From the NCBI GenBank assembly GCA_016209385.1, contig JACQWB010000149.1, positions 1 through 39,024 of the forward strand: 39,024 nt of DNA, given 5' to 3'. Below are positions 8,591 through 15,104 of this stretch, piece by piece; within the stretch, counting starts at the first letter, position 1, and every line of letters begins with the position of its first letter. The stretch is from Candidatus Rokuibacteriota bacterium. Its GTDB lineage: Bacteria > Methylomirabilota > Methylomirabilia > Rokubacteriales > CSP1-6. The notes beneath the pieces were generated by a model. The model made no database searches, was not told where the DNA came from, and saw nothing but the letters and a program-made list of their open reading frames with translations. The translations under genes and the position numbers were made by a program.

Positions 8591-9805
8591 TCACCGGTAC
8601 GCGCACGGGGGGACCTCGGTCTTCCACGCGGCCTGGGGGAGGTGCTGGCCGTGGGGGAAGAGACGGAGCTGGTGGGCCGGGAGCGCGCGAGCGAGCCGCC
8701 GCCCCCGGAGCGCGAGGAAGTAGCCCGCGCGGGCCGTGTCCACGCCGATGCACTTGAGGTCCCCGAGCCAGCGGATCACGCTCCGCCGCCGCTCCTGGGC
8801 CAGCGTGAGCGCCGCCTTCGGCCCGACGCCGGGCACCCGGAGGAGGAGCTCGTAGGGCGCTGTCATGACGTCCAGCGGAAAGACCTCGGCCTGGCGGAGC
8901 GCCCACGCGGTCTTGGGATCGTGGTCCAGGGGGAGGTTGCCGTCGGCGTCGAAGACCAGCTCCTCGAAGCGAAAGCCGTACTGGCGGAGCAGGTGCTCGG
9001 CCTGGTAGAGGCGAAGCTCGCGCATGCCTGGCGTCGCCCGCTCGCCTTCCATCGGCGTCCCCACCACGGGCTGGAAGGCGCTGAAGTGGGCATGGTGGAG
9101 GAGCTGCTCCCGTTCGAGCCGGGCCACGAGGCCGAGGATTTCCCGGTCCTGCTCCCCGGACGGACCGACGACGAACTGGGTCGTCGTCCCCGCGGGCCTC
9201 ACGTCTCCAGGTCGCCACTCCTGACGCGCATGGCGAAGGAGGCGACCGGCCAGCTCGAGCTTGGGGAGGAGGTCGCCGCTGAAATCCTTCTCCCTGGCGA
9301 GCCTCCTGATGTAGGTGTCACCCGGCGCTTCCAGATTTATCGAGATGCGGTTCGTGAGCCGCGCGGCCTGCTCGACCTGAGCCGGCTCGGCGCCGGGGAG
9401 GAGCTTGATGTGGACGTAGCCCCCGAAGCCTTCCTTCTTGCGCAGGATCTCGACGGCCGCGAGCATCCGATCCATCGGGCGCACCGGCTTGCCGGGCACT
9501 CCCGAGGTGAGGAAGAGGCCCTGGGCCCAGCCTTTGCGATGGGCCTCCATGAAGGTGGCGGCCACCTCCTCGGGCGCGAGCGCGGTGCGCTTGACCTTGC
9601 CCCCGCAGAAGGTGGGGCAGTAGCCGCAGGAGAGGGAGCACGCGTTGGTCTGCATGACGCGCATGATGTTCGTGGAGCCCCCGCCCGGAAGGCGGACCTT
9701 CCTGACCCCCACCGAGTTCCCGCTGCCCAGGCCCTTGGGGAGCCCGTGCTCCCTGTCGCCGGTGGCGGCCTCGGCCAGAATCGCGAGCCTGACCTGCAGA
9801 TCCAC
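8591..9805 (-). CDS. Putative DNA modification/repair radical SAM protein (UDG-linked family)
   Basis: A 404-residue radical SAM enzyme. The 4Fe-4S motif is C-x3-C-x2-C in TNACSLSCGYCPTFCGGK (about residue 55). The C-terminal part contains a helix-hairpin-helix (LLRVPGVGPKAALTLAQERR) as found in DNA-binding proteins. This matches the family usually encoded beside a uracil-DNA-glycosylase-domain protein (TIGR03916 with TIGR03914/TIGR03915); that partner is not in this window. The start is GTG at 9805 with GAGAGG upstream, 33 bases below a good promoter. Its reaction is not known. Confidence 0.82.
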   Translation of the reverse strand: MDLQVRLAILAEAATGDREHGLPKGLGSGNSVGVRKVRLPGGGSTNIMRVMQTNACSLSCGYCPTFCGGKVKRTALAPEEVAATFMEAHRKGWAQGLFLTSGVPGKPVRPMDRMLAAVEILRKKEGFGGYVHIKLLPGAEPAQVEQAARLTNRISINLEAPGDTYIRRLAREKDFSGDLLPKLELAGRLLRHARQEWRPGDVRPAGTTTQFVVGPSGEQDREILGLVARLEREQLLHHAHFSAFQPVVGTPMEGERATPGMRELRLYQAEHLLRQYGFRFEELVFDADGNLPLDHDPKTAWALRQAEVFPLDVMTAPYELLLRVPGVGPKAALTLAQERRRSVIRWLGDLKCIGVDTARAGYFLALRGRRLARALPAHQLRLFPHGQHLPQAAWKTEVPPCAYR

Positions 9806-9859: not shown

Positions 9860-9885
9860 GAAAAAAGAGGGGGCGGGCTAGCCCC
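9860..9885 (-). terminator. Rho-independent terminator after the AmmeMemoRadiSam-type gene
   Basis: On the minus strand GGGGC (9885-9881), a 6-base loop and GCCCC (9874-9870) are followed by CCTCTTTTTT. The hairpin overlaps the stop codon of the upstream gene. The stem is short (5 bp), but the T-run is the longest seen in this part of the window and is followed directly by the next promoter. Confidence 0.5.
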
Positions 9886-10939
9886 AAACCCCGGGGATCC
9901 GCGTCTCGCAGGACGGGCACAGCCCCCGGGTCGGGGTGAGGAGGTCCTTCAGGATCGTGTAGCCGACGCGCTCGATGAGGACGGTCTTGCAGGACGGACA
10001 GTAGGTGTTCTCGAAGGGCCCGACCCGCCCGGGAATGTTCCCCGCATAGACATAGCGGAGCCCTTCGGCAACGCCGATCTCCGCCGCGCGGATCAGGGCC
10101 TTCGCCGTCGTGTTGGCCCGGTCGGTCATCTTGTAGTCCTGGTGAAACGCGGTGACGTGCCAGGGGATGTCGGGGGAGACCGAGACCAGGAACTTCGCGA
10201 TGTCCCGCAGCTCCTCGTCGGAGTCGTTGAAGCCCGGGACCACGAGCGTCACGATCTCGAGCCAGAAGCCTTTCTGGTGCAGGAGGCGGATCGCGTCGAG
10301 CACGACCTTGAGGACCCCCCCCAGCTTCCGGTAGTCCTTGTCGTCGAAGCCCTTGAGGTCCACCTTGTAGAGGTCCACCCACGGCCGGATGTAGTCCAGC
10401 ACCTCGGGCGTGGCGTTGCCGTTCGAGACATAGGAGCACGTGAGCCCGTGCGCCTTCCCTTCCTTGAAGACCTCGATCGCCCACTCGCTGGTGATCAAGG
10501 GCTCGTTGTAGGTGGTGGTGAGAATGCGAGCCCGGTGGCGGAAGGCCAGGTCAACGATCTGCGTGGGAGTGATCTCCTGAGGGGGAACACCCGCTATCGG
10601 ATCGCGCAAGGCTTGGGAGGTCAAAAAGTTCTGACAATAACCACAATGGTAATCGCATCCGAGCATGCCGAACGACAGCGCGCGCGAGCCGGGGTAGGCG
10701 TGGAAGAAGGGCTTCTTCTCGACGGGGTCGAGCTGGAGCGCGGCGACGTAACCGGTAGGGACCATCAAGCGGCCGTCCTCGTTCCAGCGGACCTTGCAGA
10801 TGCCCTTCTGGCCCGGCGGGATCAGGCACCGATGGCCGCAGGCGTAGCAGCGGACGCGGCCCTCCGGGAGCCGCTCGTAGAGCTCGCCCTCCCGGGCGAG
10901 GCGGGAGAGGACCTGTTCCAGGCTGACCGTTTCCGCCAT
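9878..10939 (-). CDS. AmmeMemoRadiSam system radical SAM enzyme
   Basis: A 353-residue radical SAM protein of the family found with AMMECR1 and Memo homologues (AmmeMemoRadiSam). The N-terminal Cys pair segment CYACGHRCLIPPGQKGICK, the 4Fe-4S motif C-x3-C-x2-C in GCDYHCGYCQN, and two C-terminal CPSC pairs (possible extra metal site) are characteristic, as is TTTYNEPLITSEWA. The AMMECR1 and Memo partners are not in the window. The gene starts at ATG 10939 and ends in an intrinsic terminator. Its substrate is not established. Confidence 0.88.
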   Translation of the reverse strand: MAETVSLEQVLSRLAREGELYERLPEGRVRCYACGHRCLIPPGQKGICKVRWNEDGRLMVPTGYVAALQLDPVEKKPFFHAYPGSRALSFGMLGCDYHCGYCQNFLTSQALRDPIAGVPPQEITPTQIVDLAFRHRARILTTTYNEPLITSEWAIEVFKEGKAHGLTCSYVSNGNATPEVLDYIRPWVDLYKVDLKGFDDKDYRKLGGVLKVVLDAIRLLHQKGFWLEIVTLVVPGFNDSDEELRDIAKFLVSVSPDIPWHVTAFHQDYKMTDRANTTAKALIRAAEIGVAEGLRYVYAGNIPGRVGPFENTYCPSCKTVLIERVGYTILKDLLTPTRGLCPSCETRIPGVWG

Positions 10940-12396: not shown

Positions 12397-12810
12397 CTAC
12401 CGACGAAGGGCTCGAGCGGGAACGTGCTGCCGATAGTCGCCGCCGGGGATGGGCACCGCGCGGCCGCGCGGCCCGTGATACCAGTAGATCCACGCCGTCA
12501 CCTCGCGCCCGTCGGACAGGCGCACCGCGGTGAGATGGCGAAGATACAGGTCCTGGCCGGGCGCGTCGGGGCGATAACCTTCCTCCCGGTCCAGGATCGC
12601 GAGCAGCGCGGGCGCACTCAAGCGATAGACCTCGCCATGGATGGCGCCGGGCTCCTCGCGAACCGCGCCCGGATAGGACCCCAGGTCCAGGAGTCGTCCG
12701 TTCACCGTCCCCTCCCCCACGAGCTCGGCCTGTTCGGCGATCAGATGGTGGAGCCTGAAGCCCCGCATGAGGGTGCCGTACGCGAAGAGGAGGTCGGAGC
12801 CAGTGCTCAC
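12397..12810 (-). CDS. Gamma-glutamylcyclotransferase-like (GGACT/YtfP) protein
   Basis: A 137-residue AIG2-like protein. The N-terminal FAYGTLMRG is the substrate-binding YGxL loop, and GAIHGEVYRLS with DREEGYRPDAPG carries the expected catalytic Glu segment (LDREEGY). Family members cyclise gamma-glutamyl amines to 5-oxoproline. The start is GTG 12810, which overlaps the peroxiredoxin stop as GTGA, so translation is coupled. This ties thiol/gamma-glutamyl metabolism to the selenoprotein genes upstream. Confidence 0.85.
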   Translation of the reverse strand: MSTGSDLLFAYGTLMRGFRLHHLIAEQAELVGEGTVNGRLLDLGSYPGAVREEPGAIHGEVYRLSAPALLAILDREEGYRPDAPGQDLYLRHLTAVRLSDGREVTAWIYWYHGPRGRAVPIPGGDYRQHVPARALRR

Positions 12811-13352
12811 CGGCTCGCCCGACGGTGCCGGGCGATCGCCGCCAGCACTCCTTTCCCGTCCAGGGCCAGGCCACCCACGTCGACGTGCCTGACGATCCCC
12901 TGCCTGTCCACGAGAAACGTGGCCCGCCGCTCGAGCCCCCAGAGGTCATCCCAGACGCCGTAGAGACGCCCGACCTTCCCCTTGGGATCGAGGTCGCTCA
13001 GGAGCCTGAACGGGAGCTTCAGGCTCTCGGCCCAGGACTTGTTGCGCCCGGGCGCATCCACCGAGATCCCGACGATCTCCGCGTCCTCGCTGTCGAATTT
13101 CGCCTTTTCATCCCGAAACCAGGAGAACTCGGCCTGTCACCCCGGAGTGAAGGCGAGAACGTAGAAAGCCAGGACAACGTACTGGCGCTTCGCGAGGACC
13201 TCGGACAGGCGGAAGGACTTGCCCTGCTGGTCCGTCAGGGTGAAGTCCGGAGCCTGGCTACCGACGGCGAGAGGCTTGTCAGGCGCCGCAGCCGCCGCAA
13301 GCGCGGTCCCGAGCAACGCCAGAGCGAACAGCGTCACTGCGAGGCGCTTCAT
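12807..13352 (-). CDS. Exported peroxiredoxin with UGA-encoded selenocysteine at the peroxidatic position
   Basis: AhpC/TSA-type peroxidase, 181 residues when the UGA at 13139-13137 is read as Sec. Residues 1-23 are a signal peptide (MKRLAVTLFALALLG then Ala-rich). GSQAPDFTLTDQQGK opens the thioredoxin fold, and the active site reads AFTPG-U-QAEF (Sec72) where relatives have FTPGCxxE. The frame stays open and family-like on both sides of the UGA (GISVDAPGRN, LPFRLLSDLDPKG, GLERRATFLVDRQG). There is no Cys anywhere in the protein, so this would be a 1-Sec peroxiredoxin needing an outside reductant. No good Shine-Dalgarno precedes the ATG, which lies in an ATGA overlap with the preceding UGA-containing ORF. 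The stop overlaps the next gene's GTG. A conventional annotation would call this two fragments or a pseudogene. Confidence 0.85.
13107..13132 (-). promoter_or_regulatory. Candidate bacterial SECIS element of the peroxiredoxin
   Basis: Downstream of the UGA the mRNA can pair CCGAG (13132-13128) with UUCGG (13117-13113), leaving a 10-base loop that contains GG at +17/+18. A shifted alternative pairs UUC-CC with GG-GAA around the loop UGGUUUC. Distance and a G-bearing loop fit bacterial SECIS rules, but the stem is weak. Confidence 0.4.
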
Positions 13353-13495
13353 GGCTGTGGGTCTTTGGGCTCCTCACGGGAGCAGGTGGCTTTGCTCCCT
13401 CAGGTGGGAACGCCGAAGCGCGGCAACACCCAGTGCCTCAGCGCCAGCACCCCTACGATGACACCGCCGACGATCAGGAAATCGGTCCAGGTCAT
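13349..13495 (-). CDS. Tiny membrane protein with internal UGA, candidate selenoprotein
   Basis: ATG 13495 forms an ATGA overlap with the stop of the upstream oxidoreductase. The first 31 codons give a Trp/Asp start, one hydrophobic helix (about residues 6-20, FLIVGGVIVGVLALR) and the tail HWVLPRFGVPT, then UGA (13402-13400). Read as Sec, the frame continues U-GSKATC-SREEPKDPQP and ends at a TGA that overlaps the peroxiredoxin ATG as ATGA. This is the same coupling seen elsewhere in the operon. If the UGA were a true stop, 47 untranslated bases without a Shine-Dalgarno at the right spacing would separate it from the peroxiredoxin. Sec32 and Cys38 (U-x5-C) could form a redox pair. Positive-inside reasoning puts the tail in the cytosol. 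I recognise no family, so the Sec assignment is inference. Confidence 0.6.
13369..13399 (-). promoter_or_regulatory. Candidate SECIS / competing hairpins after the UGA of the tiny membrane protein
   Basis: Two mutually exclusive hairpins follow the UGA. GGGAGCA (13399-13393) pairs perfectly with UGCUCCC (13384-13378) around AAGCCACC. Alternatively GCUCC (13383-13379) pairs with GGAGC (13373-13369) around CGUGA. The second fits the usual UGA-to-loop distance and has G among the first two loop bases. The switch between them could influence readthrough or peroxiredoxin translation. Confidence 0.45.
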
Positions 13496-14151
13496 GCGGG
13501 CGTCCCCCCTCCGTTGACAGCCCGGAGCACCGCGTCGAGGAACTGGCGCTCGGGGAGCGCCCCCTCGAACTGGACGCGGTCGTTGATCACGATCTTCGGC
13601 ACGGCCATCACCGCGTACTGGCGCGAGAGGTCGGGAAACTCGGTGGCCTCGATGCAGTCGGCCCGGACCTGGGTCGACGCCACCGCCATGTGCTGGGCCA
13701 GGCGCACGGCCCGGGGGCAGTACGGTCAGGTCGGTGTGGTGAAGACCCGGATGTGGACCGGCTTGTCGAGCCCGGCCAGGACGGTTTTCGTCTCCGCGGC
13801 GAGGGCAGGCTCGCCCGTGGAGGCCACGACGATCGCGTCGATCAGGTTGGTGAACTCATACCCCGACGGCAGGCCGAAGAAGCGGATCCCGTAATCGCGC
13901 GCCCCCTCCACGACGATCGCGGGGACCCGGTCAACACCGTAGGCCTCCGCCCGCTGGCGGTCCAGCACCAGGTTCAGGAGGTTGACGCTGAGCTTGTCCG
14001 AGCACTCGGCGACTTCCTTGACGAGCAGTTCGGTGTGCAGGCAGCTCTCCGACCCAAGCTCCTGAGAGAAGACCGTGAGCGTGACGGGGCCGACGAGCCT
14101 GGTGAATTCCTTCCGGATCGCATCGGTGTCGCGGTCGGTGAGAATGGGCAT
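13492..14151 (-). CDS. Protein disulfide oxidoreductase (two-thioredoxin-fold) with UGA-encoded Sec in the U-P-Y-C active site
   Basis: Glutaredoxin-like PDO, 219 residues when the UGA at 13728-13726 is read as Sec. The first thioredoxin fold (1-115) has a degenerate active site (SESCLH, only one Cys), while YGVDRVPAIVV keeps a cis-Pro. The second fold begins IRVFTTPT-U-PYC-PRAVRLAQHMA (Sec142, Cys145) exactly where relatives have CPYCP, and keeps its cis-Pro in YAVMAVPKIVIND (P185). It has no signal peptide, so it is presumably cytosolic. GGAGG lies 6 bases before ATG 14151; longer in-frame upstream codons are not family-like. The stop overlaps the next ATG. Without Sec decoding it would look like two fragments; the perfect fit around the UGA argues for a selenoprotein. 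Confidence 0.87.
13695..13712 (-). promoter_or_regulatory. Candidate bacterial SECIS element of the disulfide oxidoreductase
   Basis: Starting 14 bases after the UGA, GGGCC (13712-13708) pairs perfectly with GGCCC (13699-13695) around the loop GUGCGCCU. The first loop base is G, about 19 bases after the UGA, as bacterial SelB requires. UGC (13719-13717) with GCA (13693-13691) can extend the stem below an internal loop. Confidence 0.55.
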
Positions 14152-14210: not shown

Positions 14211-15104
14211 CTACCGCGCGACTGGCAGGTCGTCGCGATTTCCCCACTCGGCCCAGGAGCGGTCGTAGCCCGCCACGCGCGGGTAGCCGAGGAGGCGAAG
14301 CACGAAGTACGTATGGGCCGACCTGTGGAAGGTCTGGCAGTAGGATACGACGGCCCTGTCCGGGGTGATCCCCTGGCCCGTGTAGAGGGCACGGAGCTCC
14401 TCGACCGGCCTGAAGGTGCCGTCCCGCCTCAGGTGCCGGCGCCACTCGATGTTGACGGCGCCCGGGATGTGGCCGCCCCGCTTGGCCAGGACCTGGACTC
14501 CCCGATATTCCTCCGGCGATCGCGCGTCCACCAGGACGACGGCCGGATCCTTGAGCCGGGCCAGGATCCACTCCGCGCCCGCCAGGCGCTCGGGCTTGAG
14601 CGTCGCGCGGTAGGCGGTCGGAGTCACCTGGGGGAGCTCCGTCACGAGAGCGAAGTCGCCCCGGCGCCACGCCGCCAGCCCGCCGTTGAGGATGGAGGCC
14701 TTCCTGTGCCCGAACAGCTCCAGGGTGAAGAAGAAGCGGGAGGCGTGGAGGCCCCCTGCGTCATCGTAGATCACGACATGGGTCCCCTCGCCGATTCCGA
14801 GCCTGCCCAAGAGCTGGGAAGCCTCCTCGGCATCGAGCGCCCGGGAGCCGGCGGGCGGCGCCGGAGGCATCAGCTCCCGGAGACCCAGGTACACGGCCCC
14901 GCGGATGTGACCCGCGCGATAGGTCCTGGGATCGCTCGCCATGTCCACGATCCTGAGCGCCTGCTCCTCGAGGCGGGCGTGGAGCCATCCGGGTTCTACC
15001 AGAAGCGGGTGCTCGTCGGCGCGCGCCGGCGCGGGGAGCACGAGGCTCAGCCCGACGAGGAGCAAAACCAATCGAGGCATCGCGCTCGCGCGCTTGAAGT
15101 GCAT
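14211..15104 (-). CDS. Exported two-domain rhodanese (sulfurtransferase)
   Basis: Thiosulfate:sulfurtransferase-type protein, 297 residues. MHFKRASAMPRLVLLLVGLS (then a Pro/Ala stretch) is a signal peptide ending near PARADEH, so it acts in the periplasm or outside. The N-terminal rhodanese domain (RIVDMASDPRTYRAGHIRGA) is inactive-like. The C-terminal domain (VVLVDARSPEEYRG, then GHIPGAVNIEW) carries the persulfide-forming Cys in SYCQTFHRSAHTY. I chose ATG 15104; an internal ATG at 15080 lacks a ribosome site. It lies between the TPP-domain gene and the Sec oxidoreductase, suggesting sulfur or selenium sulfane chemistry linked to the redox genes. Confidence 0.88.
   Translation of the reverse strand: MHFKRASAMPRLVLLLVGLSLVLPAPARADEHPLLVEPGWLHARLEEQALRIVDMASDPRTYRAGHIRGAVYLGLRELMPPAPPAGSRALDAEEASQLLGRLGIGEGTHVVIYDDAGGLHASRFFFTLELFGHRKASILNGGLAAWRRGDFALVTELPQVTPTAYRATLKPERLAGAEWILARLKDPAVVLVDARSPEEYRGVQVLAKRGGHIPGAVNIEWRRHLRRDGTFRPVEELRALYTGQGITPDRAVVSYCQTFHRSAHTYFVLRLLGYPRVAGYDRSWAEWGNRDDLPVAR

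Follow-up and report, generated by a model that had tools for sequence, protein, structure and literature searches.

The window, by which we mean the whole stretch of 39,024 nucleotides analysed here, contains on its minus strand a very small ORF located between the genes of two selenoproteins, a protein disulfide oxidoreductase (PDO) and a peroxiredoxin. The features of this region are the following:

14211–15098, minus strand: rhodanese, a two-domain sulfurtransferase, upstream (PF00581, E=4e-35)
13492–14151, minus strand: selenoprotein PDO, with its UGA at 13728–13726 within TPTUPYC (TIGR02187, 263 bits, cut-off 185)
13504–13512, minus strand: Shine-Dalgarno sequence of the mini-ORF, GGAGGGGGG, strong and 8 nt 5' of the ATG
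13349–13495, minus strand: putative mini-selenoprotein ORF, 48 residues plus stop, MTWTDFLIVGGVIVGVLALRHWVLPRFGVPT-U-GSKATCSREEPKDPQP when TGA is translated as U
13418–13489, minus strand: transmembrane helix, residues 3–26, predicted N-out/C-in from AlphaFold2 and the charge bias of the family
13400–13402, minus strand: in-frame UGA, predicted selenocysteine at residue 32; UGA in all non-Cys homologues
13378–13399, minus strand: competing 7-bp stem, GGGAGCA/UGCUCCC, starting directly after the UGA
13369–13383, minus strand: SECIS-like hairpin, GCUCC[CGUGA]GGAGC, common to nine Rokubacterial relatives
12807–13352, minus strand: selenoprotein peroxiredoxin (AhpC/TSA), with its UGA at 13139–13137 within FTPGU (PF00578, E=4e-36)
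12397–12810, minus strand: gamma-glutamyl cyclotransferase-like gene, downstream and overlapping the end of the peroxiredoxin gene (PF06094, E=1.5e-25)

The mini-ORF encodes one transmembrane helix followed by the UGA and a tail of 16 residues. Its start and the stop of the PDO gene share an ATGA (13495–13492), and its stop and the peroxiredoxin start share another one (13352–13349). This layout had been described in the original prediction without naming the strand and proved correct on re-translation, as did the claim that the peroxiredoxin lacks a ribosome site at normal spacing, the nearest GAGGAG being about 17 nt from its start. The peroxiredoxin gave a strong match to AhpC-TSA yet scored below every NCBIfam peroxiredoxin cut-off, and as its N-terminus is signal-peptide-like (MKRLAVTLFALALLGTALAAAAAP) the protein may be exported. 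Two adjacent radical SAM genes (8591–9805 and 9878–10939 of the window, both on the minus strand) are found further downstream.

In the AlphaFold2 model a single confident helix spans residues 3–26, followed by a disordered tail of low confidence. Among 83 members of the family, the mean number of Arg/Lys residues was 0.06 before the helix versus 1.75 after it. According to the positive-inside rule, this excess predicts an N-out/C-in orientation, so that the Sec would be expected on the cytoplasmic side, adjoining the membrane.

As a single-protein scan of GTDB contigs yielded only two loci, homologues were sought instead by profile searches of whole genomes in two phyla, comprising the window's own family (57 genomes) and the Acidobacteriota (396 sampled genomes). 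In the former, 17 of the 57 genomes carried a homologue, and in every one of these a single TGA stood in frame at the position aligned with the Sec; one further weak match from this search (L024) was unrelated. The homologues that share this UGA include some with 67–77% identity to the mini-protein of the window. The family was also detected in roughly 90 of the 396 Acidobacteriota genomes, with matches spanning the site and containing exactly one TGA in 86 of them, and with Cys instead of Sec in two (G095 and G282); a Bryobacterales homologue with Cys at the Sec position reads WILPRFGVPTCMSNSCSVESRH. Altogether, the codon at the Sec site was UGA in 83 inspected homologues and Cys in two. The original prediction had proposed a search for such a Cys homologue, here found twice, in Acidobacteriota, and had named UAA/UAG at the site, or a lack of conservation after the UGA, as outcomes that would speak against it; both were looked for among the homologues and neither was found, with no TAA or TAG at the Sec site in the inspected homologues of either phylum.

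In an alignment of 68 members, P25, G28 and U/C32 were invariant and L24 and T31 nearly so. The MSxxC stretch directly after the Sec is located 5' of the hairpin and is retained in both Cys members, which assigns its conservation to the protein level, and the VE(S/D)R stretch further on coincides in part with the hairpin, such that its conservation may reflect a constraint on the RNA. The Bryobacterales locus L086 (G095:C12:14346-14486) has Cys for Sec though its genome retains SelB; as its hairpin fails the bSECIS model, this case looks like a recent Sec-to-Cys change.

The machinery for Sec insertion was detected in the window's genome, with SelB at 388 bits (cut-off 242) and tRNA-Sec at 72.7 bits (gathering score 47), both on contig C51. 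Among the Acidobacteriota, SelB was found in 82 of the 86 genomes with UGA members versus 172 of the 310 others (p=5e-14), the four UGA genomes without a SelB match being possibly incomplete assemblies. Regarding the two Cys genomes, G282 had no SelB match and G095 had one.

Bacterial SECIS elements are described by a loop of 3–9 nt, a stem of 4–16 bp, a G in the first two loop positions, a distance of 16–37 nt from the UGA and an energy of −7.5 kcal/mol or lower (PMC13188914). Hairpins fitting this model were present in 78 of the 83 UGA members and in neither of the two Cys members. With a faster scan, 77 of 82 members fitted the model, compared to means of 35, 23 and 25 after synonymous-codon, codon-order and base shuffling, respectively, and in 60 members, compared to 18, 6 and 5 in the same shuffles, a distance of 21–24 nt separated the UGA and the loop. 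In 40 gap-free sequences, compensatory changes were counted in 70 cells of the 8-bp hairpin; shuffled alignments gave 23.8 and slid registers no more than 28. The covariation score was 0.512, compared to 0.222 in the shuffled alignments. RNAalifold alone recovered the four central pairs of the hairpin only.

The copy in the window has its loop 21 nt from the UGA, thus within the range of 16–37 nt, and the SECIS spacing claimed for it from the beginning was correct. With a calculated energy of −7.3 kcal/mol against the published threshold of −7.5 it is marginal, its spacing and loop being right. The automatic bSECIS scan gave no match for this copy because of the competing stem, which at −11.6 is the minimum-energy fold of the isolated RNA, and the copy was therefore examined by hand. 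After removal of the 9–15 nt that directly follow the UGA, the conserved hairpin became the minimum-energy fold, and the competing stem would presumably be melted by a ribosome positioned at this codon. A similar GGGAGC start was seen only in L079 among the relatives read. The UGAs of the PDO and of the peroxiredoxin are each accompanied by a bSECIS-like hairpin that conforms to the model.

A second Cys was detected at U+5 or U+6 in 63 of the 83 members and elsewhere in four, and 16 had no Cys after the Sec. As only 63 of 83 carry it at U+5/U+6, the pair of U and a second Cys is common but does not define the family. The original prediction was thus supported in part; the U-x5-C redox relay that it put forward is on weaker ground than the selenoprotein itself, the second Cys being frequent but not universal and the relay function conjectural. 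A TUAVP or TUAKP subgroup (TUAVPxPR…; L087, L095, L098, L103, L107, L111, L119 and L125) has no Cys at U+5/U+6, so that its Sec would lack an evident resolving partner within the protein.

The genetic context was also compared. The mini-gene lies directly 3' of a PDO gene in the window and in nine other Rokubacterial genomes, and this PDO contains UGA in the window and also in all five relatives whose motif was read (TPTUP[YH]C). When all loci were considered, the nearest upstream gene on the same strand encoded a YgaP-like transmembrane protein in 12 of 68 cases, a DUF302 protein in seven, an AcrB-type transporter in five, a thioredoxin-fold protein in five and a rhodanese in three, with two each for pyridine-nucleotide disulfide reductase, TauE, OsmC and ArsR. 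Downstream, a zinc-ribbon protein of the FmdB type was found in 12 of 38 cases and DUF302 in five. TrxA was near the mini-gene in several loci, a gamma-glutamyl cyclotransferase-like gene was close to it in several relatives, and many loci had unrelated neighbours.

In one lineage of Acidobacteriota (L100-L102, L104, L106, L110, L112 and L116), the mini-gene is placed between a gene for a YgaP-like transmembrane (or Suf-type) protein and genes for thioredoxin and an FmdB-type zinc ribbon. This cassette is recurrent across these loci, some of which also have SufS and a Rieske-type gene on the upstream side.

When 68 members were compared with family libraries at E≤0.01, none matched NCBIfam (June 2026), and Pfam gave three weak and irrelevant matches, of two members each, none of them to a selenoprotein family. 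The PDB, Rfam and plasmid searches gave no match to the mini-selenoprotein either, so a known protein family was rejected as an explanation. No protein of this kind was found in the available portions of the 2026 selenoproteome inventory (PMC13188914), nor was one described in those of the 2025 deep-Sep families (PMC12013277) or of the GOS families (PMC2398784), in agreement with the early statement that no described family was known. The conservation of the UGA in more than 80 homologues, the two Cys forms, the covariation of the SECIS element, the co-occurrence with SelB and the lack of a matching model together strongly support a predicted membrane selenoprotein absent from the family libraries.

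These computational data make it very probable that the UGA of the mini-ORF codes for Sec. It would be decoded by SelB and tRNA-Sec, directed by the hairpin with its loop about 21–24 nt downstream, as judged from conservation and covariation. The family so delimited, which we regard as new to the literature, would consist of proteins of about 40–65 residues with one N-out/C-in transmembrane helix, a cytoplasmic juxtamembrane motif, LP(R/K)xG(V/I)xT-U-(M/A/G)(S/A)xx(C), and a short flexible tail.

Regarding function, the neighbours PDO, thioredoxin, rhodanese, YgaP-like transmembrane protein, DUF302 and OsmC suggest a role in thiol or sulfane-sulfur redox chemistry at the cytoplasmic face of the membrane, and for a redox or sulfur role of the mini-selenoprotein we consider the chances to be about even. 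Most likely, the membrane-tethered selenol would pass electrons or sulfane sulfur to and from cytoplasmic partners of the thioredoxin-fold or rhodanese type that are encoded alongside, these being PDO in the window and, elsewhere, TrxA, rhodanese, pyridine-nucleotide disulfide reductase, OsmC or YgaP-like membrane proteins, often with the assistance of a second Cys 4–5 residues beyond the Sec. A direct relay to the adjacent peroxiredoxin is unlikely, as the Sec is predicted to be cytoplasmic and the peroxiredoxin bears a signal-peptide-like N-terminus, so that the membrane would have to be crossed. Taken jointly, Sec coding and a redox or sulfur role provide the best explanation of the data, to which we assign a probability of roughly 0.55.

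A different function for the same peptide has also to be weighed, in which the selenol and the nearby Cys would serve to bind mercury, copper or arsenic and not to transfer electrons or sulfur. U-x4/5-C could indeed chelate a metal, and ArsR-type regulators, efflux proteins of the RND type (AcrB family) and OsmC are encoded next to some of the mini-genes; however, genes of this type appear in a minority of contexts, 16 of the 83 members are without any Cys after the Sec, and no metal-binding model of Pfam or NCBIfam was matched. Thus, a metal- or metalloid-handling peptide appears rather unlikely.

The ATGA shared by the mini-ORF and the peroxiredoxin gene suggests that, in the window, translation of the peroxiredoxin may also depend on Sec read-through of the mini-ORF. 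Taken further, the mini-ORF could act mainly as a selenium-responsive leader, with the peroxiredoxin start being reached only after Sec insertion and its output tracking the selenium supply. This would fit the overlap and the absence of a normal Shine-Dalgarno sequence before the peroxiredoxin of the window, and in one relative (L075) a peroxiredoxin gene is also closely 3' of the mini-gene. Nevertheless, the peroxiredoxin is itself a UGA-containing selenoprotein, in nearly all other genomes the gene that follows is either another one or far away, and the sequence of the peptide is kept in both phyla, which leaves a leader effect at most as a local side effect and makes this proposal improbable as a general explanation.

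Finally, that the UGA is the ordinary stop of a membrane microprotein of 31 residues followed by non-coding sequence is very improbable and was rejected: UGA is a frequent stop in GC-rich genomes, the helix and the LPRFG motif both precede it and the hairpin of the window is weak in the isolated RNA, but none of the 86 site-spanning Acidobacteriota matches has UAA or UAG (p about 5e-14 when as many as 70% of stops are taken to be UGA), the frame continues with a Cys codon in two homologues, the MSxxC after the UGA is conserved in these Cys members too, and both the covarying SECIS-like hairpin and the co-occurrence of SelB with UGA members oppose it.

If the mini-ORF encodes a selenoprotein with a redox or sulfur role, the family could, more tentatively, represent widespread minimal membrane-tethered selenoproteins without a thioredoxin fold, whose selenol, often with one Cys, ferries electrons or sulfane sulfur between cytoplasmic proteins of the thioredoxin or rhodanese type and membrane partners of the YgaP-like type, and which exist almost entirely in the Sec form and were missed because they are tiny and seem to end at a UGA stop. 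The mini-gene is present in about one-fifth of the sampled Acidobacteriota and in almost one-third of the window's own family, yet falls outside Pfam and NCBIfam, and it would add membrane proteins of very small size, with a single helix, to the prokaryotic selenoproteome. Its near-exclusive Sec form is relevant to the question of why organisms keep Sec, and PDO, thioredoxin, rhodanese and the YgaP-like transmembrane protein provide a compact set of candidate partners in a membrane-associated thiol or sulfur function.

Eukaryotic SELENOK and SELENOS are small single-pass membrane selenoproteins with one transmembrane helix and Sec in a short cytoplasmic tail. Set beside them by description, the mini-protein shares this layout only, but its Sec lies close to the membrane, a few residues away, its recoding signal is of the bacterial type and none of the 68 members matched a Pfam selenoprotein family. 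The seleno-PDO (PDO_seleno_TRX, TIGR02187) is a genetic partner encoded directly upstream, a larger enzyme with a thioredoxin fold that is not homologous to the mini-protein. The YgaP-like transmembrane proteins (PF11127) are likewise small membrane proteins and recurrent upstream neighbours, but they form a separate family, as the mini-protein has no PF11127 match; YgaP has been associated with sulfurtransferase biology (PMC4730233). Compared to the bacterial selenoproteins of the 2026 inventory (PMC13188914, Table 1, as far as its available portions go), the mini-protein has neither a thioredoxin fold nor any listed domain, consisting of a single helix and a short tail, but it shares with them a UGA aligned with Cys, a SECIS-like hairpin 16–37 nt downstream and the presence of SelB and tRNA-Sec.
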